From the NCBI GenBank assembly GCA_017958305.1, contig JAGDCW010000110.1, forward strand, positions 1 to 37,760: DNA of 37,760 nt, given 5' to 3'. The translations under genes and the position numbers were made by a program. Source of the stretch: Bacteroidales bacterium (lineage in GTDB: Bacteria; Bacteroidota; Bacteroidia; Bacteroidales; UBA1402). Shown in pieces: positions 14,669-37,760 of the stretch. Position 1 is the stretch's first letter; each line of letters begins with the position of its first letter. The notes under the pieces are model-generated. The model made no database searches. It saw only the letters and a program-made list of their open reading frames with translations, and was not told where the DNA came from.

Positions 14669-14699
14669 TTAGAAATATAAAATCCATCGCTTATATTTG
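14669..14699 (+). promoter_or_regulatory. Promoter of rprXY, box very close to the start codon
   Basis: TATATTTG (14692-14699) matches the -7 consensus, with TTAG at 14669-14672 as a weak -33 element 19 bp upstream. Only 4 nt separate the box from ATG 14704, so transcription would begin at or next to the start codon, giving a leaderless or nearly leaderless message if this ATG is correct. Confidence 0.5.
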
Positions 14700-14703
14700 C
14701 GAC

Positions 14704-16230: not shown

Positions 16231-16241
16231 AATTTACAACT

Positions 16242-16958
16242 ATGACCGAAGAAAAACTTCAACTGATGTTGTGCGAGGACGACGGAAACCTGGGTTTCCT
16301 GTTGTGTGAGTATCTGCAGGCAAAGGGCTACGGTGTGGACCTGCTGCTTGACGGCGAACAAGGCTACAAAGCTTTCCAGAAAACCAAGTACGACCTATGC
16401 ATCCTGGACATCATGATGCCCAAGAAGGATGGTTTCACCCTGGCTCAGGAGATTCACATGATGAACTCCGAAGTGCCCATCATTTTCTTGACCGCCAAGA
16501 ATATGAAGGAAGATATCCTGAATGGTTTCAAACTGGGTTGCGACGACTATCTGACCAAACCTTTCAGCATGGAAGAGCTGCTGTTCCGTATCGAGGCCAT
16601 CATGCGTCGTGTCAGGGGCAAGAAGACCAGGGAAGTCACCTTCTACCAGATCGGCAACTTCTCGTTCGACGTACCCAAGCAGCTGCTCACGCTCAAAGAT
16701 GGTCCGACAACCCGTCTCACCACCAAGGAATGCGAACTGCTCACCCTGCTCTGCAGCCATCAGAACCAGATTCTGGAGCGTAACTACGCCCTGATGACCA
16801 TCTGGGGAGAGAATTCCTACTTCAATGCCCGCAGCATGGATGTCTATATCACCAAACTGCGCAAACACCTGAAGGATGATCCGGGTATCCAGATCATGAA
16901 CATCCACGGCAAGGGCTACAAACTGGTGGCTCCGCGTGGTGAGAATGGAGAGTATTGA
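16242..16958 (+). CDS. rprY: OmpR-family response regulator, RprY-like
   Basis: 238-residue DNA-binding response regulator. The receiver domain (5-120) has the acidic pocket E12-D13-D14, phosphoacceptor D56 in LCILDIMMPKKDGF, Thr in FLTAKN and Lys in YLTKPF. The winged-helix effector (about 135-232) shows RLTTKECELLTLL, the recognition region SMDVYITKLRKHL and IHGKGYKLV. Cognate partner of the kinase just upstream. RprY of Bacteroides fragilis was first found through tetracycline-efflux effects; its regulon in this organism is unknown. Last plus-strand gene before the convergent pectin operon. Confidence 0.93.
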   Translation: MTEEKLQLMLCEDDGNLGFLLCEYLQAKGYGVDLLLDGEQGYKAFQKTKYDLCILDIMMPKKDGFTLAQEIHMMNSEVPIIFLTAKNMKEDILNGFKLGCDDYLTKPFSMEELLFRIEAIMRRVRGKKTREVTFYQIGNFSFDVPKQLLTLKDGPTTRLTTKECELLTLLCSHQNQILERNYALMTIWGENSYFNARSMDVYITKLRKHLKDDPGIQIMNIHGKGYKLVAPRGENGEY

Positions 16959-16980
16959 TCGTTTGCCACACAAAAATGAG

Positions 16981-17020
16981 AATCCGCCGGAGGAGCAGCT
17001 GCTTCTTCGGCGGATTTCTT
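16981..17020. terminator. Long hairpin terminator shared by rprXY and the pectin operon
   Basis: AATCCGCCG (16981-16989) pairs with CGGCGGATT (17008-17016), and the inner bases continue the helix with two G-T pairs to an AGCT tetraloop, giving a nearly unbroken 16-bp stem. T-rich bases follow on the plus strand (TTTCTTATAT) and weaker T content on the minus strand. It lies exactly between the convergent rprY and pectinesterase genes. Confidence 0.75.
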
Positions 17021-17039
17021 ATATGCGGATTGACCCGGA

Positions 17040-18854: not shown

Positions 18855-18855
18855 A

Positions 18856-20652: not shown

Positions 20653-20657
20653 AAGCC

Positions 20658-23600: not shown

Positions 23601-23753
23601 GGCCGAAGCTTCGGCACCGGTCGATTCCACCATGACACCCTGGAGCCCCTGGCCCTTGGTATCGACAACCTTTGTGCTCAGCACAAAGCCCTGGGCCAGC
23701 ATGGAAGCCACACCCAGCAGTGATATGATGACAAAAGCAAGAGTTCTTCTCAT
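20658..23753 (-). CDS. SusC/RagA-family TonB-dependent transporter (SusC2), divergent
   Basis: 1031-residue outer-membrane importer. Signal peptide ends near SMLAQG. A carboxypeptidase-like regulatory domain (about 24-95) precedes a plug domain (about 110-230) and a 22-strand barrel. The plug is unusual: where most SusC proteins have a VLKDASA-YG-GANGVILITTK type segment, this one reads ITLLTGAEAAQYGSLGSNGV then LVIETER, and the RIRG motif is replaced by LNIGGLHSLYAEN. The end, RTVKLGFNLNF, is a normal outer-membrane insertion signal. It starts 1 bp after the FAS1-C stop and is paired with SusD2. Likely cargo is a pectin-derived oligosaccharide, inferred from context. Confidence 0.92.
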   Translation of the reverse strand: MRRTLAFVIISLLGVASMLAQGFVLSTKVVDTKGQGLQGVMVESTGAEASAFSDESGRVELKMTVPQAIVRISLSGYYSVELPVSESNQPAHVTLIPENWKNYTQGSSLNKKDMAQAMNIDMAIQGKIPGLQTVQKSGMPAEGAYLNIGGLHSLYAENTPLIVVNDVPYLNDTEVSTAINGYSRSLFAALNIYDIRNITLLTGAEAAQYGSLGSNGVLVIETERATSNNLDTRISFSGQYGMHMKGRSVDVLDADGYKNYLRSVGLGRYGSMNALTTDYPFLQTSTDYPTAYIFNNNTDWQNEIYHSAFLTNNVFRVEGGDEVAKYNMSVGYSSDGGIISGTKTERYHTLLNSNIMVSRKVDIFTSVGLSYMNSRLQEQGMSEETNPMLAAWYKMPVLSPYFAGNDGKLTNTFATYDFSNINDYPLFPYENVSNPTAIVKTLEAGDKIYDVNINMGLNYQVLDYLKLTGTFNRQYRYVEENLFIPGVSNQAIYPQFYGIGRNTVRKAVSERSNSYYGLNAAYRNIFDQIHELRADVGARIMTTSSEYDMSSGYNTANDFYKTLDKTTDEENSDGYINLWTWANYYLRGGYTWNRLVDASLSLTLDGSSVSGIDAPLYYFYPAGALKLMAANLGVMPDWVNTLDVQVSAALSGNSRFSSNYAKNYYTSANFFTMGSIIRGDIPNTLLEPEKQRQLTAGVTASLLGHRLQLGADVHDTYAYDLIIPRAISSVYASDNYYENAAAVSTKGVTVSLRITPVETRRFSWTLGGNLTANRSLVEDLGGQDYLDITYDALSQGEDMVIRLKVGEAPYQFYGYATDGIYATTAQAQADNLTGTKGAKFQAGDVRFIDHHSDGFINEQDKVLLGSTRPDCFGSFFTHLRYGQIGLNAQFNYSLGGKIYNAVRRHLESMDNFYNQAQSVRNRWQMEGQHTDMPRAAYGDPSGNNLFSDRWVEDASYLKLGSLTLSYSIEHPIANFFRSGELWVSAENLLTWTNYLGNDPETSYSYGDALYGIDYAKIPQPRTVKLGFNLNF

Positions 23754-23754: not shown

Positions 23755-25587
23755 TTAGTAGTTGTTTTTTGTCGGACGCAGGCACCAGTGGTACATCATC
23801 AGCTGATTGACGTTGGAGGTGTTGCGGTCAGCGCCGTAAGTATATAGGTAGTACATATCCGAAGAGGAGACGGTGATGGTGAAATTGCCGTCTTTTTTGA
23901 CATTGACTATGCCGACCTGATAGCCGTCGGTATCGTAGGCCTGGGCTTTCTCGCTCAGCGACGACCAGTCGTGCCAGTTGTAGCCTTCGGGATAGCCGAT
24001 GGACGATTCACCATAGTTGTCGACCACCGAAACCGATCCACGGTCGAAGTGGTAGTTACTGCCCTGGGCATACATCACCATGTCCTTGATGAGCAGCGTG
24101 TCGTTGAACTGGATGCTCAGCGAGTACAGCAGGCTGTGCTTGAATCCCATGCGCAGGTAGTATTCGCCGGCGGGGATGAAGCATTCCTTGATGCGCTGTT
24201 CGCGCGGGTTGTTTTCCAAATAGAGCGTGCCGTCGTAGGTGACGCTACAGATGACCGGCTCGGTGTTGTAGAGCTTGGCCTTGCGGGCCGTGTCGTCGGG
24301 AATGGCGGTCAACACATGATAGTACATGGTGGGCATGGTCGGCGTCAGTTCGAAGGATCCCTGTGCGTCGTTGATGATCATCGGGTCGATCCAGTGTTTC
24401 CAGCGGAAATACTGGTTGCGCTGATCGGTGGTCATGTTGTTCCAGAGTTCGTAGAAACGGCTCTTGAGACGGTAGATGATGACGTTGTTGGGCACTTTCA
24501 TCCAGTCGATGAAGAACAGGTTGCCGTTGCTGGCCTGGATCATGTCGGCGGTGCGGACCTTCTGGACGGTGGGTCGCCACATGGCCGCGTCGGCATGGCT
24601 GAACTTGGTGCCTTCCAGGGTGTCTTTCATATAGCCGCCCACGCAGTCGATGTCGTCGGTGCCGGTGATTTCCTCGGCGCTGAGGCGGCGGTCGATGAAG
24701 CAGGCCCGGACGATCCATTTCTCAAATTTGGCACGATCGACGGAGGTGGCGGCGCGACCCAGGTAGCGGGGCACTTTGGCCAGAGCGGTGTCGAGGGCTT
24801 CCTTGATGACGGCGTTGGAGGGAACCAACACGGTGGTGTTGTAGCTTTCGCTGCGCATGTTCCACATTTCCTGGCCGTCTTCAGTGTAACGGTCCATCAA
24901 GGTGTTTTTGACGGTCCAGCCCTTGGCAGAGTCGGCATAGATGGTGTTGCCCTGTTCGTTGGTGCCGGCAGGCGTGCACTTGTCGGCATCGAACCAGATG
25001 CGTTCGTAGTCTTTGACCAACTGCTTGAAGGTCGAATACTCGGCATCGTCCAGTTGCATGATCTGGTCATAAACCGAGGGCGTGACCGTCAGCAGGTGGT
25101 CGCCGATTTCATAGATGAATGCATCCTGGGTGCGGAATACCCGGCTCAGCAGACCGTTGTTGACATAGGTCTTGCCATCGGCCGTGACCGAAATCCACAG
25201 GTTCTTGCCATACCAGGTGGAGATGCCCAGCCCGTCTTTCATGTCGGCGGGAGCCAGGGCAATATCGCTGATGCAGTAGCCGGCATAGTCGGCCTGGGTG
25301 GCATAGGGACTGGCTTCCAGCAGGCTGTTGTCGTAAACCAGCACAGTGTATTCCTGCCCGGCTTCCATCTTGTCGAAGACGCCGGCAGCGGCAAACAACT
25401 TGCTTTGGGCACTGAATTCCTGATGGGAGGCCAGGAACTCCTGCAGGGTTCCCTGGTAAATGTCCGTCTGGCTGTCAGCATTGAGCTCCTGCTGGCCATA
25501 GTGGTCGCTCCAGCTGTCCTGACAGGAACTTGTCACCAAAGCCATGGCTGCGGTGGCAAGCATCATAAGGAAGGTATGTTTTTTCAT
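23755..25587 (-). CDS. Fasciclin (FAS1) domain lipoprotein, FAS1-C
   Basis: 610 aa. Signal peptide with lipidated Cys22 (VTSSCQDSWSDHYG). The first FAS1-like domain (about 45-210) has TLQEFLASHQEFSAQSKLFA and the FAS1 H1-type YTVLVYDNSLLE segment. A second, degenerate one (about 215-380) includes TTVLVPSNAVIKEAL and GNLFFIDWMKVP. The C-terminal 200 residues are strand-rich, with the block CFIPAGEYYLRMGFKHS, and end with NVNQLMMYHWCLRP, resembling the end of FAS1-B. FAS1 folds usually mediate adhesion or ligand binding. Here a surface glycan-binding role in place of SusE/SusF is plausible but unproven. It lies 14 bp after FAS1-B and 1 bp before SusC2. Confidence 0.82.
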   Translation of the reverse strand: MKKHTFLMMLATAAMALVTSSCQDSWSDHYGQQELNADSQTDIYQGTLQEFLASHQEFSAQSKLFAAAGVFDKMEAGQEYTVLVYDNSLLEASPYATQADYAGYCISDIALAPADMKDGLGISTWYGKNLWISVTADGKTYVNNGLLSRVFRTQDAFIYEIGDHLLTVTPSVYDQIMQLDDAEYSTFKQLVKDYERIWFDADKCTPAGTNEQGNTIYADSAKGWTVKNTLMDRYTEDGQEMWNMRSESYNTTVLVPSNAVIKEALDTALAKVPRYLGRAATSVDRAKFEKWIVRACFIDRRLSAEEITGTDDIDCVGGYMKDTLEGTKFSHADAAMWRPTVQKVRTADMIQASNGNLFFIDWMKVPNNVIIYRLKSRFYELWNNMTTDQRNQYFRWKHWIDPMIINDAQGSFELTPTMPTMYYHVLTAIPDDTARKAKLYNTEPVICSVTYDGTLYLENNPREQRIKECFIPAGEYYLRMGFKHSLLYSLSIQFNDTLLIKDMVMYAQGSNYHFDRGSVSVVDNYGESSIGYPEGYNWHDWSSLSEKAQAYDTDGYQVGIVNVKKDGNFTITVSSSDMYYLYTYGADRNTSNVNQLMMYHWCLRPTKNNY

Positions 25588-25601: not shown

Positions 25602-27380
25602 CTAATCAATGGGCACAAACTTGATGTAATCCCACATCTGACGGTAGTTGGCGTTGCTTGTGGCGTTGGCGTCCATCAAGATGGCTTTCAGTGTGTGGCT
25701 GGAAGTCTTGTCGAAGATGACCTTGTCGAAAAGCGTGTCGCCTGAGACAGCCTGTTGCTTGCTGTCCCAACCTTTCCAGACATAGTAGTTTTTCAGGTAG
25801 TCGTCGAGCGTGAACTTGATCAGACTGCCCTGACCATAGAATTTGGAGGCCAATGCCTTGGCTCCGGCGTAATAGAACTCAACGCGGTATTTTCCCTTGA
25901 CCAGGGTCGGGGTCTTGAACTCCACCCAACCCGTGTAGCCCAGGTTGACAATGAACAGGTTGTTCAGATAGGCATTCAAATCGTTCTCATAGTCGACCGA
26001 GGTATCCGTGTTGGCCTTGATCTTCCAGAAACCGACCTTGAGCCAGGAACTCTTGGGCGAGGCCACCGAATATTTGAAAGAGGTGATGGTGCCATACTTG
26101 TTGCCGGTCGAGAGGTCGATTCTGTATTCGGCGGCATCGGAGGGAGTGCTGTAGAGTATGCCCAGACTGTTGTCAGCACCATAGGCGTTGACCAGGGTGA
26201 TGATGTCGGGGCTGTTGCAGAAGTCCCAGATGACTTCGCTCGGGGCCGGGCTCCAGATGGGCATGATGCCGTCGATTTTGTGAATGTAGCCGTTGCAGGC
26301 CTTGATGTCGGAATGGACAAATCCGCAGCCGTCGGTTCCGTTGATAAAGGTCTGGCCAACGAGCGTCTGCAGGGTGATGATCTCGCCCGTTTCGCGGGTG
26401 TCGTAGGTCTTGACGGCGGTGGGGTCGGCGCTGTAGGTCAGCGCTGCCTTGTTGTTGGCTCCGTCCAGGATGTGATAGCTGACGTAGCGATGGATCACAC
26501 TGGCACTGTCGCTGCGGCTGATGCCGGTCTTGCCGTCGGCATCGCGGGCGCCCAACCATGTTTCCAGTTCATCCAAAGAGTGGATGCCGGCCTGGGCGTA
26601 GGTGGCATCGTCAACGGCAAACACGGTGTAGTTGACTGCATTGATGGTGGTCTGGCCCATGGCCTGTTCGACCGTGTCGGCGGTGATTTCCAACAGATCG
26701 GTCATGCCGGCGGCCTCGATGGCTTCCAAGAAGAGCTTGTATTCTCCGTAGTCTTTCATTTTTTCGACCACGTTCTCAATGAGCGGCCTGATCACACCGC
26801 CCAGTCGATAGACCATGCCGTTGACGGTCTGGTGGGCCATCTCCCTGACTAGGGACATGTTGTTGATATAGATCGACAAGGTGTCCTGCGGGGTCATGTT
26901 GGCCAGTTCGACGTCATCGACATCGGTGTCCAGGTAGCCGTAACCCAGGGTCAGATAATCGCCGAACAGGGTGGGCGTGCTGATGCTTCCTTCGTTGGTG
27001 AACTGGATGAAGGAGTTTTCCGACAGACTGGTTTTGATGACATGTACCTGGACCACCTGACGGGAGTATTCCCGGTCCAACTCATCGAAGGACGAGATGC
27101 CCTTCAACTCCATGAACGCCCTCATGGCCTCGTTGTCGGGGGCGAAGAGCGTGACAGTGGTGCTGGCATCGTTCAGGGCATTGTAATAGTCGGCTGCGTC
27201 GAGAAACTCCAGGAAGAGCGAATAGTCTTCGATATGCTTTTCGAGATAGGCGATGTTGGTGATTTTCGTGTCATCGCCGTCGTCCAGCACGAACATCTGC
27301 CCTGCATAGGGGTCCTTGCAGCCCCAGAGGGTCAGCAGAAGGGCCGAAGCCAGGATATTTTTCAACAGTGTCTTATTCAT
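25602..27380 (-). CDS. Fasciclin (FAS1) domain lipoprotein, FAS1-B
   Basis: 592 aa from ATG 27380, with lipidated Cys21 in LLTLWGCKDPYAG. Two clear FAS1 domains are visible. The first (about 45-200) has DYSLFLEFLDAADYYNAL, VTLFAPDNEAMRAF and VNGMVYRLGGVIRPL. The second (about 202-395) has EYKLFLEAIEAAGM, YTVFAVDDATYAQAG and CNGYIHKIDGIMPIW. A strand-rich C-terminal domain (about 400-592) contains LVKGKYRVEFYYAGAKA and ends in YRQMWDYIKFVPID, similar in layout to FAS1-C. Alternative ATGs at 27386 and 27407 are in frame; the last would overlap the SusD1 stop. The C-terminal domain may be a carbohydrate-binding beta-sandwich (inference). It lies between SusD1 and FAS1-C. Confidence 0.87.
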   Translation of the reverse strand: MNKTLLKNILASALLLTLWGCKDPYAGQMFVLDDGDDTKITNIAYLEKHIEDYSLFLEFLDAADYYNALNDASTTVTLFAPDNEAMRAFMELKGISSFDELDREYSRQVVQVHVIKTSLSENSFIQFTNEGSISTPTLFGDYLTLGYGYLDTDVDDVELANMTPQDTLSIYINNMSLVREMAHQTVNGMVYRLGGVIRPLIENVVEKMKDYGEYKLFLEAIEAAGMTDLLEITADTVEQAMGQTTINAVNYTVFAVDDATYAQAGIHSLDELETWLGARDADGKTGISRSDSASVIHRYVSYHILDGANNKAALTYSADPTAVKTYDTRETGEIITLQTLVGQTFINGTDGCGFVHSDIKACNGYIHKIDGIMPIWSPAPSEVIWDFCNSPDIITLVNAYGADNSLGILYSTPSDAAEYRIDLSTGNKYGTITSFKYSVASPKSSWLKVGFWKIKANTDTSVDYENDLNAYLNNLFIVNLGYTGWVEFKTPTLVKGKYRVEFYYAGAKALASKFYGQGSLIKFTLDDYLKNYYVWKGWDSKQQAVSGDTLFDKVIFDKTSSHTLKAILMDANATSNANYRQMWDYIKFVPID

Positions 27381-27399
27381 AATCATTGAGCAAAATGGC

Positions 27400-28944
27400 T
27401 TATTCATAATAGGGGTTCTGGTGGAGCAGCGGATTGTTTTCCAGCTCTTTGTCATAGACGGGCAAGTACAGGGAGTTGTTGTCCGACAACACGGCGCGGA
27501 ACCAGCTGGTGCTGGCCTGCTTGTTGAAGTCCAACAGGCGGGCGGTGATGAAGGTCTCTTTGTACTTGTAGTTGTCGCGACGGCCCATGCGCAGCATGTC
27601 GTACCAGGCTTTCGCCTCGCCGGCAAATTCCGTAGCCCGCTCGTCGAGCAGGCAGCTGAGCAGTTCTATTTCATTGGTTCCGGCCGGGTCGATGGTGACA
27701 TCGCCCAGGTTGGAACGGTTGTGTACCTTGTTGATCAGCGCCACAGCTTCGGCATAGCGACCCTCACCCTGCATGATCAGGGCTTCGGCTTTCATCAGGA
27801 TGACTTCGGCCACCCGGTAGAGGATGAAGTTGGGATCGTAATGCTCCGACGTACGCTTTTCGGTGAGCACCTGCGAGCCGTAGTATTTCCAGCAGTAGCC
27901 CGTGGTGGCTGCCAGGTAGGCCGAAGGCGTCTGGATATGGAAACCACCGTACATGGAGCGTACATACTCGCCGTGATGCGAGTCGGTATAGGTGCATTCC
28001 TGGATAAAGAGCTCGGTCATGCGCTGGCTGTAGGCATAGACCCTGCCGTTGCCGGTTTCCTCGAACAGGACGGGCAGCGTGTTGAGCTGTTCGTCTTCTT
28101 CGTTCCACTGGAGCTCGAGAATCGACTCGTTGCTGTTGCCCGGATTGAAGATCGAGAACCACGATCCGTGGGAAGGTGTCGAAAGGAAACTGGGAGCATA
28201 GGGCGAAGTGGCGTTGAGCAGCATGTCGCAATAGCGCTCGCATTCGGCATAGTCGCCGTTCCACAGGCAGACATCGGCCATCAGGGCCAGCATGGCCCAT
28301 TTGGTGGCGCGGCCCTTGTTTTCCCATGTCTTGTTGTAATACTCCTTGGCAGCCCCCGATTCGATGGCGGTCTTCAGGTCTTCCTTGATCTGGGCGATGA
28401 CCTGCTGTTCGGTGGCCTGAGGGAAGTAGTAGTCCTGGGCATCCGTCTCGTAGGGTTGCAGGATGAGCGGCACCTCGCGCCAGTTGCGCACCAGATAGAA
28501 GTAGGTCAGGGCACGCAGGAAATAGGCTTCGGCCTTATGGGCATTGAGCATGTTCTCATCGTAGGTGTAATCTACTTGATATGCTTTCTCGGCATTGGCC
28601 AGCACCCCGTTGGCTACGTTGATCACTTCGTAGAAGGGACCCCAGTTGCAGATGTCCTGGTTTTCCTTGACACGGAATTCCTGCACGCTGGAATAGGCAC
28701 CGCGGCTGAAGATATGCCCGGCACGGAGCTCTCCGAGCGGGATAAGTTTGGTGGTGACCATCTCGCGGTAGTAATAGTAGCAGCCGTTCAACATGGCTTC
28801 CACTTCTTCCTTGTTGGTCCAGTAGTAGTCGCTCACCTGGTCGTTCTGAGGATAGACCTCAAGCCATTTCGTGCAGCTGGTGCTGCCTGTCGTCATCAGG
28901 ACGGCAGCCGTCATAGCGATGATATATGATCTGATTTTCTTCAT
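27400..28944 (-). CDS. SusD/RagB-family outer-membrane lipoprotein (SusD1)
   Basis: 514-residue canonical SusD homologue. Lipidated Cys24 in TGSTSCTKWLEVYPQND. The N-terminal SusD-like region includes EVEAMLNGCYYYYREM; the helical region HKAEAYFLRALTYFYLVRNW then REVPLI is the most typical SusD signature, and the C-terminal part has LYRVAEVILMKAEAL and the final RAVLSDNNSLYLPV. It should form the lid over SusC1 and capture glycan at the cell surface. 15 bp after SusC1 and 19 bp before FAS1-B. Confidence 0.94.
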   Translation of the reverse strand: MKKIRSYIIAMTAAVLMTTGSTSCTKWLEVYPQNDQVSDYYWTNKEEVEAMLNGCYYYYREMVTTKLIPLGELRAGHIFSRGAYSSVQEFRVKENQDICNWGPFYEVINVANGVLANAEKAYQVDYTYDENMLNAHKAEAYFLRALTYFYLVRNWREVPLILQPYETDAQDYYFPQATEQQVIAQIKEDLKTAIESGAAKEYYNKTWENKGRATKWAMLALMADVCLWNGDYAECERYCDMLLNATSPYAPSFLSTPSHGSWFSIFNPGNSNESILELQWNEEDEQLNTLPVLFEETGNGRVYAYSQRMTELFIQECTYTDSHHGEYVRSMYGGFHIQTPSAYLAATTGYCWKYYGSQVLTEKRTSEHYDPNFILYRVAEVILMKAEALIMQGEGRYAEAVALINKVHNRSNLGDVTIDPAGTNEIELLSCLLDERATEFAGEAKAWYDMLRMGRRDNYKYKETFITARLLDFNKQASTSWFRAVLSDNNSLYLPVYDKELENNPLLHQNPYYE

Positions 28945-28959: not shown

Positions 28960-31900
28960 TTAGAAATTGATGGTTATACCGGCGGAAATACGCTTGCTCG
29001 GCGGAGTCTGCGCCGTATCCATGGCGATACTGGTCACATTCGAGGGCAAGGTCACTTCGGGGTCCTGGCCCGTGTAGTTGGTCCAGGTGAACAGGTCGTA
29101 GGCGGTGATATAGGCCGTCACGCTGTTCAGGCTGAGCCGGCTGCACAGTTCCCTGGGCAGGCTGTACGACAGGGAAACGGTCTTCAGACGCAGGAAGGAG
29201 CAGTCTTCGACAAAACGGTCGCTGCCCAGGTAGTTGAGACCGTATTTCCACAGGGCGCGGGGGATGTCCGTGTCGTCGCCCGGGCTGCGCCAGCGCTTGA
29301 GCACGGCCAGGCTCTGGTTGTCGGTGCCGTACATCGATTCGCTGTTCATGCGAGCCTGGTTGATGATTTTCTGTCCCAGACGGTAGTGGAAGAAGGTGTT
29401 GACCGACAACTTCTTGTATTTGACTGTGAAGCCGCCGCCACCGGTGACCACCGGGTTGGAGTTGCCCAGGTAAACGATATCGTTCTCATTGATGACACCG
29501 TCGTGATTGACATCCTCGTATTTGGCGTCGCCCGGGAAGCAGACATAGGAGCCGTTCTTCATGACAATGGGCTTGCCCTGGAGGTCGGTCATCACGTTGC
29601 CTTTGGCATCGCGGGCATAGGTTTCGACCGTGGTGTCATAGACACCCAGGTAGCGGTAGCCGAAGAAGCTGCCTACGGGAGCGCCCTCGATGATGCGTCG
29701 GGCATAGTTGCCGTTGGCCAGCGAGTAGGTGCTTTCGGGCAGGTTGGTCGGCAACTTCTCGATGCGGTTGATGTTGCGGGCGATGTTGTAGTTGAGTTTG
29801 ACGTTCCAGTCTTTTTCCTGCAGCAGGGTGTAATCGATGCGGAATTCCCAACCCGTGTTGCTCATCTCGCCCGAGTTGTAATAGGCGATGGTGTTATTGC
29901 GCGAGTTGTAGCCGATGGTGGTCGGAATCGAGACATTGCGCTGCAACAGGTCGGTGGTGTATTTGTAATATATATCAAAGGTAGAGCTGAGCCGTTCTTC
30001 GAACAGACCGATATCGATACCGGCATCATATTCGCTGGCCGTCTGCCATTTGAGGTTGTTGAGCTGGATGGAGATGGGGACGATCGATGGATTGTCGCGA
30101 TAGCCGTCGCCCAGGGAAGAGTACTTGCCCATGTAGGGAGCGGCACCCGAGGGAGCGGCACCGCTCTGGCCATAGCTGGTACGCAGCTTGAGCGAACTGA
30201 GCCAATCTTTGTCCTGCAGGAAGTCTTCTTCCTTCATGTGCCATGCCAGACCCACCGAGGGGAACAGGCCCCATCGGTTGGACTTACCCAGCGATGACTT
30301 GCCTTCGAAGTTGACCGTACCCGAAACGATGTACCGGTTCATGAAGGTGTAGTTCAATCCGCCGATACCACTCACCGAGCGGACTTGCGAAGCACCCGAG
30401 CCGCGTTCCACGACGGCACCGTTGGTCGAGGGGTCGGAGGCATGCTGCGAGGCGGCCCCGTAGATGGTACTGGTGTAGTTGCTCGTCTCGTTGTCGCTCG
30501 TGCGCCATACCCCCGTCAGGACCAGGTTGTGCAGCTCGTCCCAGTTGCGGCGGAAGATGAGCTTGTTTTCGGTCTGCAGGGCCAGGTTGTCGCTGTAGGC
30601 GTCGGTACTGCGGTTGGCGTAGGTGTTGTCCATCGTCACACCGGTGGCGCTTTGCGGCAGGAAGGCGCGGTTCTTGATGGTCAGGAACTTCATGGAGACG
30701 TAGGCCGTATAGGTGAGGCCGGGAATGATGTCGTAGTTGAGCCGGAAGTTCATCTTCTCTTCCTGCTGGGCGCTGTTGTTGTAGCTGTCGCGCGCCATGG
30801 CGATGGGATGGAAGTTGCGTGAGCCGGTGAAAGCGCCCTGAAACTCCTCGGCATTCTGACGGCCGAAGTAGCGGTTGGTGGGCTCCAGAGTGACATCGTC
30901 TATCCAGTAGGGACTCTTGTTAGGCATCTTGAGCATGGCTTCCGAACGCACGCGGTCGGTCCAGTTGGCCTCTTTGCCCGTCTGGGCAAACGACAGGTCG
31001 GCATCCACCCGCAGCTTGTCACTGAAGCGGTAGCCGATGTTCAGGGAGGTGGAGAAGCGGCTCAGATTGGTGCCGATGGTCGTACCATCCTCGTCCATGT
31101 AGGCCAGGCTGAAACGGTAGGTGGCCTTTTCACCGCCGCCCGACATGGAGAAGTTGTTGTCGAAGGTGTAGGCATCCTGCACCACGGTCGAGAGCCAGTC
31201 GGTATTGACGTTGTATTCGTTGAAATAGCGCCACTCCTTGTTGAAGTTGATTTCGGGCGTGTCGTATAGCAGTTGCAGCAGGGAGGCACTGGTCGAGACA
31301 CCCTTGGCATTGGCCGTGTTCCAAACGGCATCCTCGATGAAGGAGACATATTCCTTACCGTTGAGCATGGGGATGGAGGCCGGCTCATACTTGGCCGTGA
31401 ACTTCGAGGAGAAGGTGAAGCGCGGACGGCCCCGTTCGCCGGTCTTGGTGGTGATGAGCAGCACACCGTTGGCGCCGGCCGTACCGTAGATGGCCGTCGA
31501 GGCAGCATCTTTCAGCACTTCGATCGACTCGATGTCGAAGGGCGAGAGGTTCAGCATGGCGGCGTAGTCTTCGTTGTTGGCGGTGGCAAAGTCGAAGCTG
31601 TCGTCAATGTCGGTCGAATAGGGCACGCCGTTGATGACAATGAGCGGGTCGGCACTGGTGTTGAGCGTGGCGGTACCGCGGATACGGATCGAGTTGCGGG
31701 CACCCGGGTCGCCGCTGGCCAGGATATCGACACCGGCCAGTTGGCCCTGCAGGGCTTCTTCGACCGATGTGACGGGCGAAAATTCAATGATTTCGCTCAT
31801 GGAGATACGCTCCGTGGCGGCCGTCTGTTCACGCAGGGTGATACCCATTTCGTTCTTTTGTTCGCGCTTGACGGAGATGACCACGTCGCTCAGGGTCTTG

Positions 31901-32223
31901 GAATCTTCTTCCATGACCACGTCCAGGGTGGTCTGGCCCGTGTAGGGAATGGTCTGCGTCTTCATACCGATGTAGGAAAAGACCACGGTCATTTCGCCCC
32001 GGCCTTCGGGTACGCGCAGGCTGTATTCGCCGTTGTAGTTGGTCACCGTACCGTCGATGATACGGTTCTGGCTGTTACGGAACGAGATGTTGACGCCGAT
32101 GGCCTCTTCGCGGTGGCCGTCGAACAGCTCATAGACATGTCCGGTCAGCATCTTCTGCGCAGAAGCAGACAAAGCCAGTGTCAGTGACAGGATCAGGATA
32201 GCAAATATCTTTTTCATACGCAT
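28960..32223 (-). CDS. SusC/RagA-family TonB-dependent transporter (SusC1)
   Basis: 1087-residue (1085 from the second Met, 32217) outer-membrane importer with all usual parts: signal peptide to SASAQ, carboxypeptidase-like regulatory domain (about 25-108), a TonB-interacting stretch near LSDVVISVKR, plug with SVEEALQGQLAGVDI, SIRIRGTATL and the classic IEVLKDAASTAIYGTAGANG segment, then the barrel ending SAGITINF. Its start overlaps the FAS1-A stop (TGATG-type overlap), so the two are translationally coupled. Expected substrate is an oligogalacturonide, by context. Confidence 0.95.
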   Translation of the reverse strand: MRMKKIFAILILSLTLALSASAQKMLTGHVYELFDGHREEAIGVNISFRNSQNRIIDGTVTNYNGEYSLRVPEGRGEMTVVFSYIGMKTQTIPYTGQTTLDVVMEEDSKTLSDVVISVKREQKNEMGITLREQTAATERISMSEIIEFSPVTSVEEALQGQLAGVDILASGDPGARNSIRIRGTATLNTSADPLIVINGVPYSTDIDDSFDFATANNEDYAAMLNLSPFDIESIEVLKDAASTAIYGTAGANGVLLITTKTGERGRPRFTFSSKFTAKYEPASIPMLNGKEYVSFIEDAVWNTANAKGVSTSASLLQLLYDTPEINFNKEWRYFNEYNVNTDWLSTVVQDAYTFDNNFSMSGGGEKATYRFSLAYMDEDGTTIGTNLSRFSTSLNIGYRFSDKLRVDADLSFAQTGKEANWTDRVRSEAMLKMPNKSPYWIDDVTLEPTNRYFGRQNAEEFQGAFTGSRNFHPIAMARDSYNNSAQQEEKMNFRLNYDIIPGLTYTAYVSMKFLTIKNRAFLPQSATGVTMDNTYANRSTDAYSDNLALQTENKLIFRRNWDELHNLVLTGVWRTSDNETSNYTSTIYGAASQHASDPSTNGAVVERGSGASQVRSVSGIGGLNYTFMNRYIVSGTVNFEGKSSLGKSNRWGLFPSVGLAWHMKEEDFLQDKDWLSSLKLRTSYGQSGAAPSGAAPYMGKYSSLGDGYRDNPSIVPISIQLNNLKWQTASEYDAGIDIGLFEERLSSTFDIYYKYTTDLLQRNVSIPTTIGYNSRNNTIAYYNSGEMSNTGWEFRIDYTLLQEKDWNVKLNYNIARNINRIEKLPTNLPESTYSLANGNYARRIIEGAPVGSFFGYRYLGVYDTTVETYARDAKGNVMTDLQGKPIVMKNGSYVCFPGDAKYEDVNHDGVINENDIVYLGNSNPVVTGGGGFTVKYKKLSVNTFFHYRLGQKIINQARMNSESMYGTDNQSLAVLKRWRSPGDDTDIPRALWKYGLNYLGSDRFVEDCSFLRLKTVSLSYSLPRELCSRLSLNSVTAYITAYDLFTWTNYTGQDPEVTLPSNVTSIAMDTAQTPPSKRISAGITINF

Positions 32224-34622
32224 CAGAACATACCGTTAATAAATTGGACACAGCCGTCTTCGAAGACGAAGGGCAAGTAATGATAGTCGCCGCAGAAATC
32301 GATGGTCTTGTCGCCGTCGAGCAGCTTGACCGTGAGCTTGTCGCCCTGGTCGGTGACGACCACCTTGACCGACTGATAGGAGACTTTGCCGGTGTTCTCG
32401 TCATAGATTTCGATGGTGTTGGCCGTCTGCATTCCCTTGGTGGTGGTTTCACCCCAGCCCAGGTAGGGATAGTTGGTGATACCGGCCGATGACAGGGGCA
32501 CGAAATAGTCCTTGAGATACATCTGCAGGCTGTCGAGCCCGGTGTCGCGTACTGAGCAGCATTCGAAGATGTCGGCACCGCCGGCGTAGGCGGCGGCATC
32601 GAAGTTGAGACCGGGCAGGCTGCCGCCCTGGATGGCGTCAAAGACGGCCTGGTTGCCGGGGATGAGCATCAGGTAGCTTTCGGCGGCTTCGGTGAAGTTG
32701 AAGTTGGCCCCGTTGTACATGGAGGCCTCGATCAGCAGGTTGACAAAAGCATAATAAGGCAAAGTGTTGTCTATGCGGTTGTTTTGCATCATCTGCTGGA
32801 ACTTGCTGTAGGTGGTCTCCTTGGGCAGGCCGGTAAACAGTGAGCCGTCGTACGAGTAGGCATGTCCGTTGCTCCACCGTCCGTCTTCGGTGTAGGAGGG
32901 CAGTTCAGTGAAGGTGACAAACAGCTCGTCGTCGGTCTTCTGGATGGGATAGATGCGCTCGTTGAAGCGGAAGCTGTTGGTGATCTTGCCGTTCATCACA
33001 TACCAATAGAAGGTGTAGTCGGGCGAGAAGGCTTTGAACACCTGTGTTTTGGCGCCTGTGGCATCCAACTCGGTGTCGGTGCCGGTGCAAGCTGACAGAT
33101 CGACCAGGTGGGCGTAGGCGGTGCCGTTGAGCACATCGTTGCCCAGGGCCTTGTTATCGCGTTCCAGGTAGTTGTTGCGGCTGTTGTAGCTGATGTTGGC
33201 CCCCGTGATCTGATCGTTGGAGGGAATCAGGGCCAGCAGTTGTACCTGGTCGCTCCAGAGCGAGTTCTGCAAATCGCCCAGCGATTTGAGCATGAACAGA
33301 TAGTAGCTGTAGTCGCGGTACTGGTAGGCAGGACCGGTCACGGCAGCGAACATGGTGGGCACGGCCAGTTCCTCGCAGCCGTAGAGAAGACCGTTGTTGC
33401 AGAGGATGCGGTATTTCTGCGGCACGGCATCGAGATCGACTTTGATGACGGCATCATAGCTGTTGATCACCTCGCCTTTGCGCAGGTTCTCGGGCCATGC
33501 CAGCTGACCGTCGTAGTTGTTTCCGTCCTTGGCACCTTGATAGACGCAGTTGTAGAGCAGGCGTTCGACCGATTCGGTGCTTACCTGGCTCAGGCTGGCA
33601 TAGCCGCCCTTGGCCCAGTAGCCGTTGAAGAACGACTCCATGGCCTGGTTGGTGGGGGCGAAAATGGTGTAGCCGACCGAGGAATTCTCCGTCAGGCGCG
33701 AATAGTCGGTGCTGGGCCATTCGCAGGCGATGTTGGGCATCGGGCTGTTGAACAGGTGCTGGTACAGGCGGGTGCCGTTGCCGTATTCCTGCGTGAGGTC
33801 GGGATCGTAGGCAAAGGTCTCCTTCTTCTTGTAGAGCGTCAGGAACTGGCTGAAGTTGCTGTCGTTTTTCAGTTCGGTGTAGATGGTGTTGAGCGGCTTG
33901 AGCACGTGGTCGATGGCATGGATATAGCCGTTGCTGGTGATCTGGTTGCCCTCGGTCACGGCCGCGCCGGCCACGTTGTAGCCGATCTGGGTGGGATTCC
34001 ACTCGACATCCGGGAAGAAATAGTGGTAGTTTTCGGCGGCATTGAGCTGACGGGTGTCGAAATACTGCTGGGAGAAGACCGGCAGGAAACGCTCGCGATG
34101 GTAGATGGTCACATCCAGGTCGCGCCGGAAATCATACTCGGTGGTATTGGCATCCTTGCTCTTGGTGCGGTGCTTGTAGTACAGGCCCGCATTGATTTTC
34201 TTCTCCTCGTCGGTGACATCGTCGCCTTCTTCGGGGCGGAAATTGATGAGTTTGTCGGCACTGTAGGCATAGTACATCAGATGGAAGCCGATGAGTTTGT
34301 CCAACTCGACGGAATCCATCTCTTCGATGCTGCCCAGGCCCTGTTCGCGCAGATACACCTTGAAGGCCTCGTCGTTGGGTGCCATGACCGTGAGGATGCT
34401 CTTGCCGTCGACCATGTCGTGGAAACCGGCCAGGTCGATACCTTTGAGGAAAATGGAGTAGTTGCCCGCTTTGTCCAACACTTCGTAGCAGTTGCCCTTG
34501 ATCCAGGTGGGCCGTTCATAGTATTCGGCCATGTGGTCTTTACAACTGCCCATTGCAAGTGTCAGAGCGACTGCTGCCAGGCATCTCCATTGGCTTCTTT
34601 TTTGGAAAAGCTTGATTTGCAT
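32223..34622 (-). CDS. Large multi-domain fasciclin (FAS1) lipoprotein, FAS1-A
   Basis: 799 aa with lipidated Cys27 (LAMGSCKDHMAEYYERP). At least four FAS1-like repeats can be traced. The first (about 50-245) has YSIFLKGIDLAGF, ILTVMAPNDEAFKVYL and NGYIHAIDHVLKPL. The second (about 248-435) has FSQFLTLYKK and VGYTIFAPTNQAMESFF. The third (about 440-600) has YYLFMLKSLGDL and QLLALIPSNDQ. The fourth (about 605-790) has FVNLLIEASMYNGANFNF and YLMLIPGNQAVFDAI. Later copies are degenerate. It probably projects far from the outer membrane. Being translated just before SusC1 with overlapping codons, it may be a structural part of the uptake complex or a glycan-binding arm; neither is shown. Confidence 0.85.
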   Translation of the reverse strand: MQIKLFQKRSQWRCLAAVALTLAMGSCKDHMAEYYERPTWIKGNCYEVLDKAGNYSIFLKGIDLAGFHDMVDGKSILTVMAPNDEAFKVYLREQGLGSIEEMDSVELDKLIGFHLMYYAYSADKLINFRPEEGDDVTDEEKKINAGLYYKHRTKSKDANTTEYDFRRDLDVTIYHRERFLPVFSQQYFDTRQLNAAENYHYFFPDVEWNPTQIGYNVAGAAVTEGNQITSNGYIHAIDHVLKPLNTIYTELKNDSNFSQFLTLYKKKETFAYDPDLTQEYGNGTRLYQHLFNSPMPNIACEWPSTDYSRLTENSSVGYTIFAPTNQAMESFFNGYWAKGGYASLSQVSTESVERLLYNCVYQGAKDGNNYDGQLAWPENLRKGEVINSYDAVIKVDLDAVPQKYRILCNNGLLYGCEELAVPTMFAAVTGPAYQYRDYSYYLFMLKSLGDLQNSLWSDQVQLLALIPSNDQITGANISYNSRNNYLERDNKALGNDVLNGTAYAHLVDLSACTGTDTELDATGAKTQVFKAFSPDYTFYWYVMNGKITNSFRFNERIYPIQKTDDELFVTFTELPSYTEDGRWSNGHAYSYDGSLFTGLPKETTYSKFQQMMQNNRIDNTLPYYAFVNLLIEASMYNGANFNFTEAAESYLMLIPGNQAVFDAIQGGSLPGLNFDAAAYAGGADIFECCSVRDTGLDSLQMYLKDYFVPLSSAGITNYPYLGWGETTTKGMQTANTIEIYDENTGKVSYQSVKVVVTDQGDKLTVKLLDGDKTIDFCGDYHYLPFVFEDGCVQFINGMF

Positions 34623-34638: not shown

Positions 34639-36303
34639 TTATCGAATTATCATCTTTTGGTGGCGACTCAGGTAAATGCCCGGCTGGGTGGGATTCAGCA
34701 CGATGCGGCCCGTCAGGTCGTGCCATACGACGTCCTGGCTGTCGCTGCCTTGTGTGGGCGTATGGATGGCCGAAGGCAGGTCGTTGACGCCATTGCCCGT
34801 GACATATTCATAGTCGGAAAGCTCCTGGGCCACGATGTGGGCCACCAGGCTGTGGAGATAGACTTCCAGGTTGGTATAGCCGATGTCGGAGAGGTCGGTC
34901 TTGTTGCGGTCGCGCGGATCGCGGGCGTTCAAGCCGTTGGCTTCTTCCCACTCATCGGGCATGCCGTCCTGGTCGGTGTCCTTGGGGGCTTCGACGCTTT
35001 CGAGTGTGGGCCAGGCGCTCCAGTCGCTGCCGGCACCGGAGGGCTTGAGGTCGTTCTGGCTGTCGATGATGCCGCCCACCTGGCTGTAGCTACCCATGAA
35101 GGTGGCCGTACCGCCACGTGTTTCACGCACGATGCGCTCATCGATGATGTCGCGCTTGAGGGAGCAGCCGGCCGTGGCCAGCACTTTTTCGAAGGCCACC
35201 TGGGCGCTGTGGGTAGTCACCGTGCCGGGATCCAGGGGCTCACTGAGTTTCATGGCGGCTATTTCGGCCGAGGTGGCACCGTCGATGTTGTTGGCCACCC
35301 CGTAGCGCCAGTTGTCCTGGCAGGTGAGTTTTTCGTAACTGTCGGTCGGAGTCTTGTAGGTGTCGCTCAGCGAAGAGCACCAGTTGCCGCTCACATAGTA
35401 TTTGCCCCATTTGGGCCGGGCGGCATCGTCGTTGTTGGGACTGATGCCGATGATCATGCTGCGGCGGTTGTGATTGGTTTTGGTCGAGGGGCCGGGCTTG
35501 TAGTAGCAGTTGATGAAATTACAGTCCATGCCCTCGGCTCCATAGCAGCCTACGACCATGCCATAGTTGTAGATGACGTTGTTGCGCAGATCCACCTTTT
35601 CACGGCCGGCTGTGCTGGAACCGCTGCCGATGCGCGGGGTACGGCTGCTGTGATGGGCCAGCAGGTTGTGGTGGAAGGATGTGTTGGCCCCGCCCCAGAT
35701 GCCGCCGTAGCCGTGGTTGCCTTTCTCGTGGTTGGAGTGGCGCAGGCTTTCGCTGATGATGCACCATTGGAGGCTCAGGTTTTCATCGCCGTAGAACGAA
35801 ACGCACTCATCCACGCTCCATGAGCAGGAGCAGTGGTCGATGATGATGTTTTTGATGAAGCGTCCACCCAGGGCATCGTCTTCCTGGTTGGGGTCGGTGT
35901 CGCCCATACGGAAACGCATGAAGCGGATGATGACGTTGTTAGCGTTGACGTGCACCGGTTCACCTGCCAGGCAGATGCCATCACCCGGGGCGGTCTGGCC
36001 GGCAATGGTCAGGTTGCCGTTGTTGATGTTGAGTCCGGCTTTCAGGAAAATGGTTCCCGAAACATCGAACACGATGGTGCGGGTTTCGTTTTTGTTGATA
36101 TAATAGCGCAACGATCCGAATGTGGGATTGTTTTCATCGTCATCGAGGTTGGTGACATGATAGACATAACCGCCTCGTCCGCCGGTGGTGGTGTAGCGGC
36201 CGTGGCCTTCGGCCCCGGGAAAGGCGGGCAGATTGTCGGCCCAGACGGGCAGCACTGCGGTGATGATACCAATGAAAAGCGAAGAGAGTAGATGCTTTTT
36301 CAT
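34639..36303 (-). CDS. Secreted pectate lyase, PL1 type
   Basis: 554 aa. Expected calcium-dependent beta-elimination of de-esterified homogalacturonan. Signal peptide ends near PVWA (residue 22). The catalytic beta-helix starts AFPGAEGHGRYTTTGGRGG and includes GSLRYYI, TIVFDVSGTI, LTIAGQTAPGDGI, the calcium-side block IIIDHCSCSWSVDE and HSSRTPRIGSGS with likely catalytic arginines R221 or R224. A calcium-binding repeat DTDQDGMPDEWEEANGL lies near the C-terminus. The last 30 residues (VVWHDLTGRIVL then PGIYLSRHQKMIIR) resemble a short type IX sorting tail. Start at 36303 is set by the signal peptide and the upstream -7 box. First gene of the operon, 16 bp before FAS1-A. Confidence 0.93.
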   Translation of the reverse strand: MKKHLLSSLFIGIITAVLPVWADNLPAFPGAEGHGRYTTTGGRGGYVYHVTNLDDDENNPTFGSLRYYINKNETRTIVFDVSGTIFLKAGLNINNGNLTIAGQTAPGDGICLAGEPVHVNANNVIIRFMRFRMGDTDPNQEDDALGGRFIKNIIIDHCSCSWSVDECVSFYGDENLSLQWCIISESLRHSNHEKGNHGYGGIWGGANTSFHHNLLAHHSSRTPRIGSGSSTAGREKVDLRNNVIYNYGMVVGCYGAEGMDCNFINCYYKPGPSTKTNHNRRSMIIGISPNNDDAARPKWGKYYVSGNWCSSLSDTYKTPTDSYEKLTCQDNWRYGVANNIDGATSAEIAAMKLSEPLDPGTVTTHSAQVAFEKVLATAGCSLKRDIIDERIVRETRGGTATFMGSYSQVGGIIDSQNDLKPSGAGSDWSAWPTLESVEAPKDTDQDGMPDEWEEANGLNARDPRDRNKTDLSDIGYTNLEVYLHSLVAHIVAQELSDYEYVTGNGVNDLPSAIHTPTQGSDSQDVVWHDLTGRIVLNPTQPGIYLSRHQKMIIR

Positions 36304-36516: not shown

Positions 36517-37760
36517 ATGAAGAAAATTACTCTTTTGGTTTGTTCGTTTGCAGTAGCAATGTTTGCTTCTGCTGCCAACATCACTGTTGAGAGCCCTGCC
36601 GATTATGCTACCGCATACGCAGGCGCTGCCGACGGCGATGTCCTGCTGCTTTACAGCGGTACCTATGCCAACCAGGATCTGCCCACTGGCAAGTGCATCA
36701 CGGTCAAGGCTTTTGCCGACACCTGCGAAGTCTTCCTGACGGGTGAAATCCGTGGCGGCGGTACGGACGGTGGTATTACCTACGAAGGTGTCACCATCGG
36801 TGACGGAGCTTCTTATCTGTTCAACTTTGCACCGACAGGTCACATCAAGCACATCCGTTTTGTCAACACCACCCTGCAGAATGTCAGCCGCTGTACCTTC
36901 TATCTGGGCGGTGATGCTACGACGTCTGCCCTGGAGTTGGTTGAATTCCAGAACTGCGTATTGCGCAATCTGAACACTGGTAACTGGAACATGTCCTGGC
37001 ACAGCACACCTATTTACAAATGGGTGATCAACGAATCGACTCTCTATGGCAACGAAGGCATGGAATGTTTCTATAACCCGACGGGCAGTTACGGTGAGAT
37101 GAGTCACCAGTTTATTTTCACACACAATACGATGTACTCCGGATGCCGTGATGCCAATCGCCAGATTGCCAGTCCGACCAATAAGTTTGCCGGTGAGGCT
37201 TCTGTTCTGACTTTCACCGACAATGTCATCCTCTGCCCGGCCGGAAAGAGCGCCGGCTCGCTCTGGAACATCAGCGCAGGTTATTGGACCGTGACCGTCA
37301 AGAATAACTTGATTGACGGCTGGCAGATTCCTGCCTGGAACGATGATCTGGGTGATGCCGAAATCGCCAACAACTATACGCTTACCGACCTGGGTCTGGC
37401 CACTCCGGCCAGTGCTTTCGCCGATGCTGCCAATGCCGATTTTACTTTGTACAAAGGCTATTCTGCTCTGGAAGGCAAGGGTACGGAAGGCAGTGTCCTG
37501 GGTGATACCGAATGGTTGGTTGAGGTTAGCGGTCTCTATACTTTGACTCAGGGCTTAGCTGCCAATGTCGATTCTTTGGCCGGTGTGGTCAGTGGCCCTT
37601 CGGGCATGGTTCCTGGTGGCAACCAAGTTACCCTGAAAGCAGTCAAGAACTACGGTTACAAGTTTGTCAAGTGGGTTGATGCCACTGGTACACAGCTTAG
37701 CACCGACGCTGAATATACTTTCGAAATGACCGGTGACAAGACCGTCCTGGCTGTCTTCGA
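36517..37760 (+). CDS. Secreted beta-helix protein with C-terminal InlB-like repeat, 3' end missing
   Basis: The first 414 codons are visible. The signal peptide MKKITLLVCSFAVAMFASAA is followed by a polysaccharide-lyase-like region (about 22-330) rich in parallel beta-helix rungs such as ITYEGVTIGDGASYLFNF, IRFVNTTLQNVS, VEFQNCVLRNL and LTFTDNVILC. It resembles DUF4957/DUF5123-type pectin-lyase-fold proteins. From about residue 347 a Listeria-Bacteroides (InlB-type) repeat begins, with GGNQVTLKAVKNYGYKFVKW and a Gly-Asp-Lys-Thr-Val turn. No lyase or hydrolase catalytic residues can be assigned in the visible part, so it may be an enzyme whose catalytic domain lies further on, or a binding protein. 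Divergent from the pectin operon across a 213-bp control region, suggesting co-regulation. Confidence 0.8.
   Translation, partial: MKKITLLVCSFAVAMFASAANITVESPADYATAYAGAADGDVLLLYSGTYANQDLPTGKCITVKAFADTCEVFLTGEIRGGGTDGGITYEGVTIGDGASYLFNFAPTGHIKHIRFVNTTLQNVSRCTFYLGGDATTSALELVEFQNCVLRNLNTGNWNMSWHSTPIYKWVINESTLYGNEGMECFYNPTGSYGEMSHQFIFTHNTMYSGCRDANRQIASPTNKFAGEASVLTFTDNVILCPAGKSAGSLWNISAGYWTVTVKNNLIDGWQIPAWNDDLGDAEIANNYTLTDLGLATPASAFADAANADFTLYKGYSALEGKGTEGSVLGDTEWLVEVSGLYTLTQGLAANVDSLAGVVSGPSGMVPGGNQVTLKAVKNYGYKFVKWVDATGTQLSTDAEYTFEMTGDKTVLAVF

Follow-up and report, generated by a model that had tools for sequence, protein, structure and literature searches.

In the excerpts available from the published accounts, utilisomes are assemblies in which accessory lipoproteins dock on SusC, and those for levan and dextran comprise SusC, SusD, one surface glycan-binding protein (SGBP) and one glycanase (PMC7618045). 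In SusE/SusF-type SGBPs and in DUF1735/BACON spacer proteins, as excerpted, spacer domains lie near the membrane and are followed by a sugar-binding end (PMC11216935). Among pectin loci of Bacteroides thetaiotaomicron, the excerpted accounts place in the RG-I locus the surface glycan-binding protein BT4167, which by its number lies between the SusCD pairs BT4164/65 and BT4168/69 (PMC8002723), and a DUF5108 protein within BT4164-69 (PMC10434189); the HG locus, around BT4108-BT4124, has two SusCD pairs, the SGBP BT4112 and pectate lyases (PMC8002723, in part). The sole match in the literature that we searched to combine fasciclin (FAS1), SusC and polysaccharide utilization was PMC10199937, in the available part of which FAS1 is taken as an adhesion domain; the part of PMC11107044 that we consulted held nothing bearing on FAS1. 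No description of FAS1 lipoproteins as partners of SusCD was found in this literature, which comprised papers available without subscription.

The window analyzed here, a stretch of 37,760 nucleotides from a Bacteroidales bacterium, contains a gene, FAS1-A, that is one of three FAS1 lipoprotein genes in a module with two SusCD pairs and pectin enzymes, a setting that goes beyond what the first-pass annotation of this DNA had described. All of the genes considered lie on the minus strand, in the order FAS1-A, SusC1, SusD1, FAS1-B, LPC, SusC2, SusD2. The FAS1-A open reading frame, present at exactly 32223-34622, encodes a lipoprotein of 799 amino acids that was assigned from Pfam Fasciclin, AlphaFold2, fold matches and profile-profile comparison. 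It is followed by the TonB-linked outer membrane transporter SusC1 (28960-32223, with a start at 32223 or 32217; TIGR04056, 732.9 bits), the lipoprotein SusD1 (27400-28944; PF07980, 96.9 bits, and PF14322, 66.9 bits), FAS1-B (25602-27386), LPC (23755-25587), the SusC2 transporter (20658-23753; TIGR04056, 490 bits) and a lipoprotein (18856-20652) without a Pfam or NCBIfam match that we named SusD2 for its position directly after SusC2. Directly upstream of FAS1-A is a PL1-like pectate lyase (34639-36303; PDB 9buj, 'Pectate lyase', E 1.3e-70 over query residues 23-336), which gave no Pfam match above the cut-off and which we take to belong to PL1, and at the downstream end of the module is a pectin methylesterase (17040-18854; PF01095, 143.8 bits; PDB pectinesterases, best E 3.4e-23), presumably of family CE8.

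The module looks partly similar to a published pectin locus of B. thetaiotaomicron. The RG-I locus BT4164-BT4169 shares with it, as far as the excerpts describe, a pectin target, two SusCD pairs, intervening genes (by number) and one DUF5108 protein; however, a four-FAS1 protein upstream of SusC goes unmentioned in the excerpts on the RG-I and HG loci, which are compared with the module through their published descriptions. Like the levan and dextran utilisomes, as excerpted, the module combines accessory lipoproteins and SusCD in one locus (PMC7618045), whereas it has three FAS1 lipoproteins alongside two SusCD pairs, as predicted from its genes. With the SusE/SusF-type SGBPs and the DUF1735/BACON proteins it has in common a lipoprotein gene beside SusCD and, in the case of LPC, a predicted layout with a membrane-proximal spacer and a sugar-binding end, but the spacer of SusE/SusF is Ig-like in the excerpted account and that of the module is FAS1 (PMC11216935). 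FAS1-A itself differs from the SusE/SusF type in being made of FAS1 folds, without a recognized sugar-binding end. This conserved set, in which two SusCD pairs go with three FAS1 lipoproteins, suggests that Bacteroidales have a second architecture for capturing glycans.

The first-pass annotation had placed FAS1-A next to SusC1, and this neighborhood proved to be widely conserved. The order from FAS1-A through SusC2, the last gene that the loci of the 80 named relatives covered, is kept in 63 of the 80; the remaining 17 are cut by a sequence end, and none has a contrary order. SusCD is present at least in part in 79 of the 80 loci, and the median identity of FAS1-A is 41% (60 of the 63 complete loci). 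The same module, made up of divergent proteins and in one case without LPC, occurs in all five stretches from five other Bacteroidales families, which were chosen for their FAS1 hits. Relatives of the two pectin enzymes lie upstream in 35 of the 80 loci and are absent upstream in 44, with at least 2.5 kb of sequence present there in 64 of the 80; inspection by eye of the flanks of the divergent modules revealed no obvious pectinase. In a distance-matrix analysis of 60 of the 63 complete loci (the other three were excluded for split genes, and SusC2 was partial only), the strongest partial correlations were those of FAS1-B with LPC (0.59) and of SusC1 with SusC2 (0.48); those of FAS1-A were 0.33 with SusD1, 0.23 with SusC1 and 0.20 with LPC, so that SusC1 was not singled out as its partner.

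FAS1-A had been read initially as a lipoprotein with four tandem FAS1 domains, for which structure prediction and a FAS1 profile search were proposed as checks. Consistent with a lipoprotein, its N-terminus has a signal peptide and a lipobox (SCK), and the lipid-anchor residue Cys27 is shared by all 62 sequences that were aligned. The profile search returned three partial stretches of PF02469 (55.7 bits, E 7.3e-15; cut-off 22 bits), and Pfam alone is thus too insensitive to count the domains. The AlphaFold2 model (mean pLDDT 90.3, pTM 0.81) confirmed, at the level of predicted structure, that FAS1-A encodes four FAS1 folds: D1 (residues about 41-245, with an insert of ~86 residues at 127-212), D2 (246-431), D3 (432-575) and D4 (605-799), the borders of which were set by hand. 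The best PDB matches of the model in Foldseek were human periostin and TGFBIp (E down to 1.1e-20), which likewise have four tandem FAS1 folds, and VIA-align aligned 504-511 residues of these proteins with model residues 37-799 or 39-799 at Z 16.1-16.5 and 12-17% identity. We put down the high rmsd of these alignments (12.8-13.7 over the whole chain) to differing angles between domains. Periostin and TGFBIp are secreted animal matrix proteins with an N-terminal EMI/cysteine-rich domain; because no such domain was found in FAS1-A, where a signal peptide and short linker alone precede D1, we regard FAS1-A as sharing their fold without being a member of their family.

Profile-profile comparisons support the later domains to differing degrees. 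The FAS1 pair of the FAS1-B family aligned with FAS1-A over domains 1-2 (99.5%), over profile positions 313-501 (96.6%) and over positions 402-694, corresponding to domains 3-4 (79.8%), and the LPC family aligned over domains 1-2 (98.5%) and positions 417-690 (61.5%). Compared directly, D3 and D4 matched at 75%, D1 and D3 at 2.8%, and D1 and D4 at 0.9%. Searched singly in Pfam, D3 and D4 each matched Fasciclin in 9 of 37 relatives (E<=1), and those of the window gave no match; against the PDB, the D3 profile found periostin at a mere E of 0.033, outranked by an unrelated chain at 0.005, and the D4 profile found no FAS1 chain. Because these sub-profile searches were weak or negative, the assignment of D3 and D4 rests mostly on the whole-chain fold match, in which both are part of the single model that was searched.

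As had been suggested at first pass, the copies diverge unequally: the mean fraction of the top residue among 62 FAS1-A sequences falls from 0.660 in D1 through 0.547 in D2 and 0.456 in D3 to 0.447 in D4. The accompanying idea that the later copies decay did not hold, however, in that D3 and D4, although more divergent, have a confidently predicted fold and positions invariant among the 62 sequences, which rules them out as dead remnants. Within D1, conservation of the insert (0.673) is barely higher than that of the core (0.647 and 0.661), and 46 of 673 sliding stretches of the same length score as high. Five basic residues of the insert (R129, K150, R152, H175 and R178) are invariant or at least 90% conserved. 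The divergent FAS1-A-like sequences keep the lipobox-proximal segment and the FAS1 core, and the second half of the insert could be recognized by eye in two of the six (L130 and L131).

The two sister lipoproteins have their own C-terminal ends. FAS1-B (594 amino acids), for which the start was assigned from relatives and the domain make-up from profiles, without a structure model, contains two FAS1 domains (PF02469, 68.3 bits in two stretches) and a DUF5108 domain (PF17133, 79.9 bits). LPC (610 amino acids; AlphaFold2 pLDDT 87.7) had no Pfam match itself, but 35 of 52 relatives matched Fasciclin at E<=0.1, and its model has FAS1 matches at residues 45-370, accounting for two FAS1 domains, and CBM-like matches at about 369-610, a C-terminal beta-sandwich. 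The latter resembles several carbohydrate-binding modules (7ehg MiXBM, Z 9.6; CBM86, Z 9.4; a CBM35, Z 8.3), as well as sandwich folds of other function at similar Z (8.0-9.1). Foldseek also matched this end to a CBM35 in complex with delta-4,5-anhydrogalacturonic acid (E 6.6e-3), one of the unsaturated ends that pectate lyases leave. In a profile comparison of FAS1-B with LPC the FAS1 parts align (to about residue 368) and the C-terminal ends do not; the comparison therefore does not link DUF5108 and the LPC sandwich by descent.

Taken with its gene company, these features indicate that FAS1-A probably serves the SusC1/SusD1 transporter of a pectin (polygalacturonate) utilization locus as a lipid-anchored accessory subunit, and by analogy it would most likely be a FAS1-built counterpart of SusE/SusF-type proteins. 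From the lipobox and the neighboring genes we infer that FAS1-A is exposed at the cell surface, where its four folds would form a rod starting at the membrane and in a physical complex with SusC1. Labor would be divided between cores and insert: the FAS1 domains would most likely be the structural or docking part, as are the Ig-like domains of SusE/SusF, and pectate would be contacted by the D1 insert, by the CBM-like sandwich of LPC and possibly by the DUF5108 end of FAS1-B. The three lipoproteins together would keep pectate close to the lyase and hand fragments to SusD1/SusC1 (and SusD2/SusC2). Ligand binding by FAS1-A is the weakest step of this proposal because no carbohydrate-binding domain was recognized among its VIA-align matches, which also listed no SusE/SusF or utilisome chain; neither result excludes anything. 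A bolder version, which we hold tentatively and think rather unlikely, is that the products of the seven genes make up a single double machine, in which the three FAS1 lipoproteins join two different SusCD transporters at the cell surface with the four-domain FAS1-A rod as the bridge, and that FAS1 is a general building block of this class of Bacteroidales transporter, with inserts and ends alone varying by substrate.

That D1 is the most conserved domain, that the basic residues of its insert are plausible for binding an acidic polymer, and that an N-x-R-P motif in the insert sets the closer group apart (62 of 62 sequences, against none of the six divergent ones) raise the possibility that FAS1-A is not a scaffold but the main SGBP of the locus, binding pectate through D1. 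We consider this possible but doubtful: LPC and FAS1-B, with their CBM-like and DUF5108 ends, are better candidates; the published RG-I SGBP of B. thetaiotaomicron appears, in the excerpted account, in the FAS1-B/LPC position; and a carbohydrate-binding fold is lacking among the FAS1-A matches. Less probable again is an adhesin for plant fiber or neighboring cells, akin to animal FAS1 proteins. Periostin and TGFBIp do share the fold and domain number of FAS1-A, and FAS1 domains of other bacteria are taken as adhesive in the available parts of PMC10199937 and PMC7661554; however, a common fold shows no function, and FAS1-A keeps a fixed place in the transporter operons of diverse Bacteroidales. 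By hand count, 21 of 23 FAS1 open reading frames in three genomes have a SusC gene no more than 3 kb away. The operon position and this SusC company argue against a lone adhesin, a reading that we rejected. The conserved module gives bacterial FAS1 domains a testable role in nutrient uptake, and in the genome of the window 8 of the 10 SusC genes above the cut-off, again counted by hand, adjoin such FAS1 genes. The accessory-subunit reading of FAS1-A remains the one that we favor.

The FAS1-A stop codon overlaps the SusC1 start as TGATG, an overlap that had been taken at first pass to hint at a fixed stoichiometry. The overlap is real in the window, but among 79 relatives the gap from the stop to the SusC1 ATG lies between -4 and +126 nt (median 19), with an overlap (-1 or -4) in just 6 and a positive gap in 73. 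The SusC1 frame of the window also contains another ATG, two codons (six bases) further downstream, that is compatible with a normal signal peptide. Because the overlap is so rarely conserved and the SusC1 start is ambiguous, it is uninformative on stoichiometry, and translational coupling that fixes the ratio of FAS1-A to SusC1 is very improbable.

One or two domains had also been supposed to be the number in most FAS1 proteins of Bacteroidales. This is doubtful, given that among the matches listed from 14 genomes at least one protein has four strong FAS1 matches and at least two have eight each; long proteins resembling FAS1-A are recurrent.

The FAS1-A gene (32223-34622, minus strand, start at 34622) is a single open reading frame of 799 codons plus a stop, whose product the first-pass annotation had described as a surface lipoprotein with four FAS1 (fasciclin) repeats. 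Pfam Fasciclin matched the protein in three stretches (55.7 bits, cut-off 22), which by themselves are insufficient to demonstrate four domains. The predicted structure of the window protein (mean pLDDT 90.3, pTM 0.81) had as its top PDB matches periostin and TGFBIp, with four FAS1 domains apiece (Foldseek E down to 1.1e-20), and VIA-align superposed residues 37-799 or 39-799 of the model on these proteins with Z scores of 16.1-16.5 and 504-511 residues aligned. The first domain (D1, residues ~41-245) by itself aligned with TGFBIp FAS1-4 over 131 residues (Z 16.9, rmsd 2.0). In separate Pfam scans, neither D3 (432-575) nor D4 (605-799) of the window protein matched Fasciclin, and each matched in 9 of 37 relatives (E up to 1); the D3 profile reached periostin in the PDB only at E 0.033, a PDB search with the D4 profile found no FAS1 chain, and the D1 profile showed only weak similarity to D3 or D4. 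In profile–profile comparisons, the FAS1 pair of the family of FAS1-B, a sister lipoprotein, fell on FAS1-A profile positions 402-694, that is, domains 3-4 (79.8% probability), and that of the family of LPC, the third lipoprotein, on positions 417-690 (61.5% probability). The whole-chain model and these profile alignments together make four FAS1 folds, rather than one or two, well supported, with D3 and D4 resting chiefly on the model. Among the matches listed for 14 genomes, besides the proteins discussed here, at least one frame of 624 residues has four strong FAS1 matches, and two frames have eight (G154 contig C3, 361176-364388, 1224 residues; G278 contig C5, 89871-93818, 1458 residues); the latter two differ from the divergent module copies. 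Such proteins make the first-pass statement that one or two FAS1 domains are the rule in Bacteroidales doubtful.

The four copies have diverged unequally, as had been suspected, with the mean top-residue fraction among 62 aligned sequences (the window protein and 61 of the best 80 named relatives) falling from 0.660 in D1 through 0.547 in D2 and 0.456 in D3 to 0.447 in D4. D1 carries an insert of ~86 residues (127-212) in which 32 of 86 columns reach at least 90% identity; its mean top-residue fraction, 0.673, is barely above that of the D1 core, and 46 of 673 equally long sliding stretches score no lower. An N-x-R-P motif in the insert is present in 62/62 sequences of the window's group and in 0/6 divergent FAS1-A-like proteins, which keep the lipobox-proximal segment and the FAS1 core blocks; from this pattern we infer that FAS1-A combines constant docking or framework parts with a group-specific, possibly ligand-binding part. 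Given that two of these six proteins (L130 and L131) still have an insert whose second half can be recognised by eye, the insert is less sharply specific to the window's group than its motif.

FAS1-A begins with a signal peptide followed by a lipobox that ends in Cys27, and since this cysteine is invariant in all 62 aligned sequences, FAS1-A is a lipoprotein; its gene company suggests exposure at the cell surface. The TGA of FAS1-A and the ATG of SusC1, the transporter gene that follows, have one base in common, an overlap that had been taken as a sign of fixed stoichiometry. However, across 79 relatives the gap lies anywhere between -4 and +126 nt, with a median of 19, and only 6 of the 79 have an overlap; SusC1 also has another ATG two codons further on. 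The first-pass reading is thus supported in part: the four folds, the lipoprotein and the unequal divergence stand, and the overlap says nothing about the ratio of the two proteins. The tight spacing supports placement of FAS1-A and SusC1 in one operon.

On the minus strand the gene order is pectate lyase (34639-36303; PDB 9buj, E 1.3e-70), FAS1-A, SusC1, SusD1, FAS1-B (25602-27386; two FAS1 stretches and DUF5108 by Pfam), LPC (23755-25587), SusC2, a gene in the SusD2 position and pectin methylesterase (17040-18854; Pfam and PDB matches). Window LPC had zero Pfam matches, and 35 of 52 LPC sequences match Fasciclin (E up to 0.1); its model (pLDDT 87.7) has two FAS1 folds, aligned with TGFBIp 7asg over 239 residues (Z 15.8, rmsd 6.5), and a C-terminal beta-sandwich. 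The latter matches a xanthan lyase domain (Z 10.4), 7ehg MiXBM (9.6), CBM86 (9.4) and a CBM35 (8.3), and Foldseek matches of LPC include a CBM35 with bound delta-4,5-anhydrogalacturonic acid (E 6.6e-3); the fold is a common one, because plant receptor ectodomains and insecticidal-toxin domains also match it (Z 8.0-9.1). With the FAS1-B count taken from Pfam stretches, these numbers add up to eight FAS1 domains across the three lipoproteins (four, two and two).

A scan of GTDB species genomes gave 186 pattern matches, 120 of them confirmed, and we used the best 80 of the 120, selected by FAS1-A alone. The order FAS1-A, SusC1, SusD1, FAS1-B, LPC, SusC2 runs on one strand throughout in 63 of these 80 loci, which are not 63 independent intact cases, some being near-duplicates and some paralogs within one genome; median FAS1-A identity is 41% (60 of the 63). 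The other 17 loci end early, after SusC1 (8), SusD1 (5), LPC (2), FAS1-B (1) or FAS1-A (1), and in all 17 the sequence stops at most 352 bases past the last gene. Split genes occur in loci L081, L089 and L113; in L081 (Bacteroides reticulotermitis, 15470-22179) the SusD1, FAS1-B and SusC2 relatives are each broken into two or three frames, through either decay or sequencing error. In five additional stretches, one from each of five other families and selected for having FAS1 hits, a FAS1-A-like gene, SusC, SusD, a FAS1-B-like gene and a second SusC were found in 5/5 and an LPC-like gene in 4/5. The FAS1-A profile matches 56 of 295 Bacteroidales genomes, many through partial FAS1 matches only. 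A divergent module in the window's own genome (L122, contig C129, 5878-19998) has a FAS1-A-like frame of 1117 residues, and between its two SusCD pairs lies just a single additional FAS1 lipoprotein. Within three genomes, 21 of 23 FAS1-bearing frames (Pfam) lie at most 3 kb from a SusC gene; one of the two exceptions (L127, contig C181 of the window's genome, 1568-6491) is a FAS1-B-like lipoprotein adjoining an alpha-L-rhamnosidase, with no SusC nearby. By hand count, such modules contain 8 of 10 SusC genes above the cut-off in the window's genome; the corresponding figures are 8 of 13 for G005 and 4 of 11 for G080. Our literature search found no description of a conserved module of two transporters and three FAS1 lipoproteins.

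FAS1-A is thus best read as a PUL accessory lipoprotein built of FAS1 folds within such a conserved module, and it probably, though by no means securely, serves a pectin SusCD system. This reading is tempered by the less sharply group-specific D1 insert and by the upstream pectin enzymes: relatives of the two lie upstream in 35 of 80 loci and none was found in 44, which is mostly not due to short sequence, because 64 of the 80 have at least 2.5 kb there. The FAS1 rods would act as spacers and docking parts, and sugar would be contacted by the D1 insert and the end of LPC, perhaps also by the DUF5108 end of FAS1-B. Accessory lipoproteins of the levan utilisome stay docked on SusC (PMC7618045), which supports the accessory reading, and SusE/SusF and DUF1735 proteins fill the same spacer role with Ig-like domains (PMC11216935), whereas FAS1 folds would do so here. 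B. thetaiotaomicron BT4167 is named as the RG-I surface glycan-binding protein, flanked, by gene number, by two SusCD pairs (PMC8002723), and a DUF5108 protein is among BT4164-69 (PMC10434189); these may be relatives of FAS1-B.

Convergent with the module, and ending a short way downstream of the pectin methylesterase, are the genes for a histidine kinase and a response regulator (14647-16958, plus strand), a pair that could regulate the locus. Adjoining the pectate lyase, a divergent gene start (36517-37758, plus strand, open at the window end) has an InlB-repeat match above the cut-off and DUF5123/DUF4957 matches below it, and may encode one more surface protein belonging to this locus.
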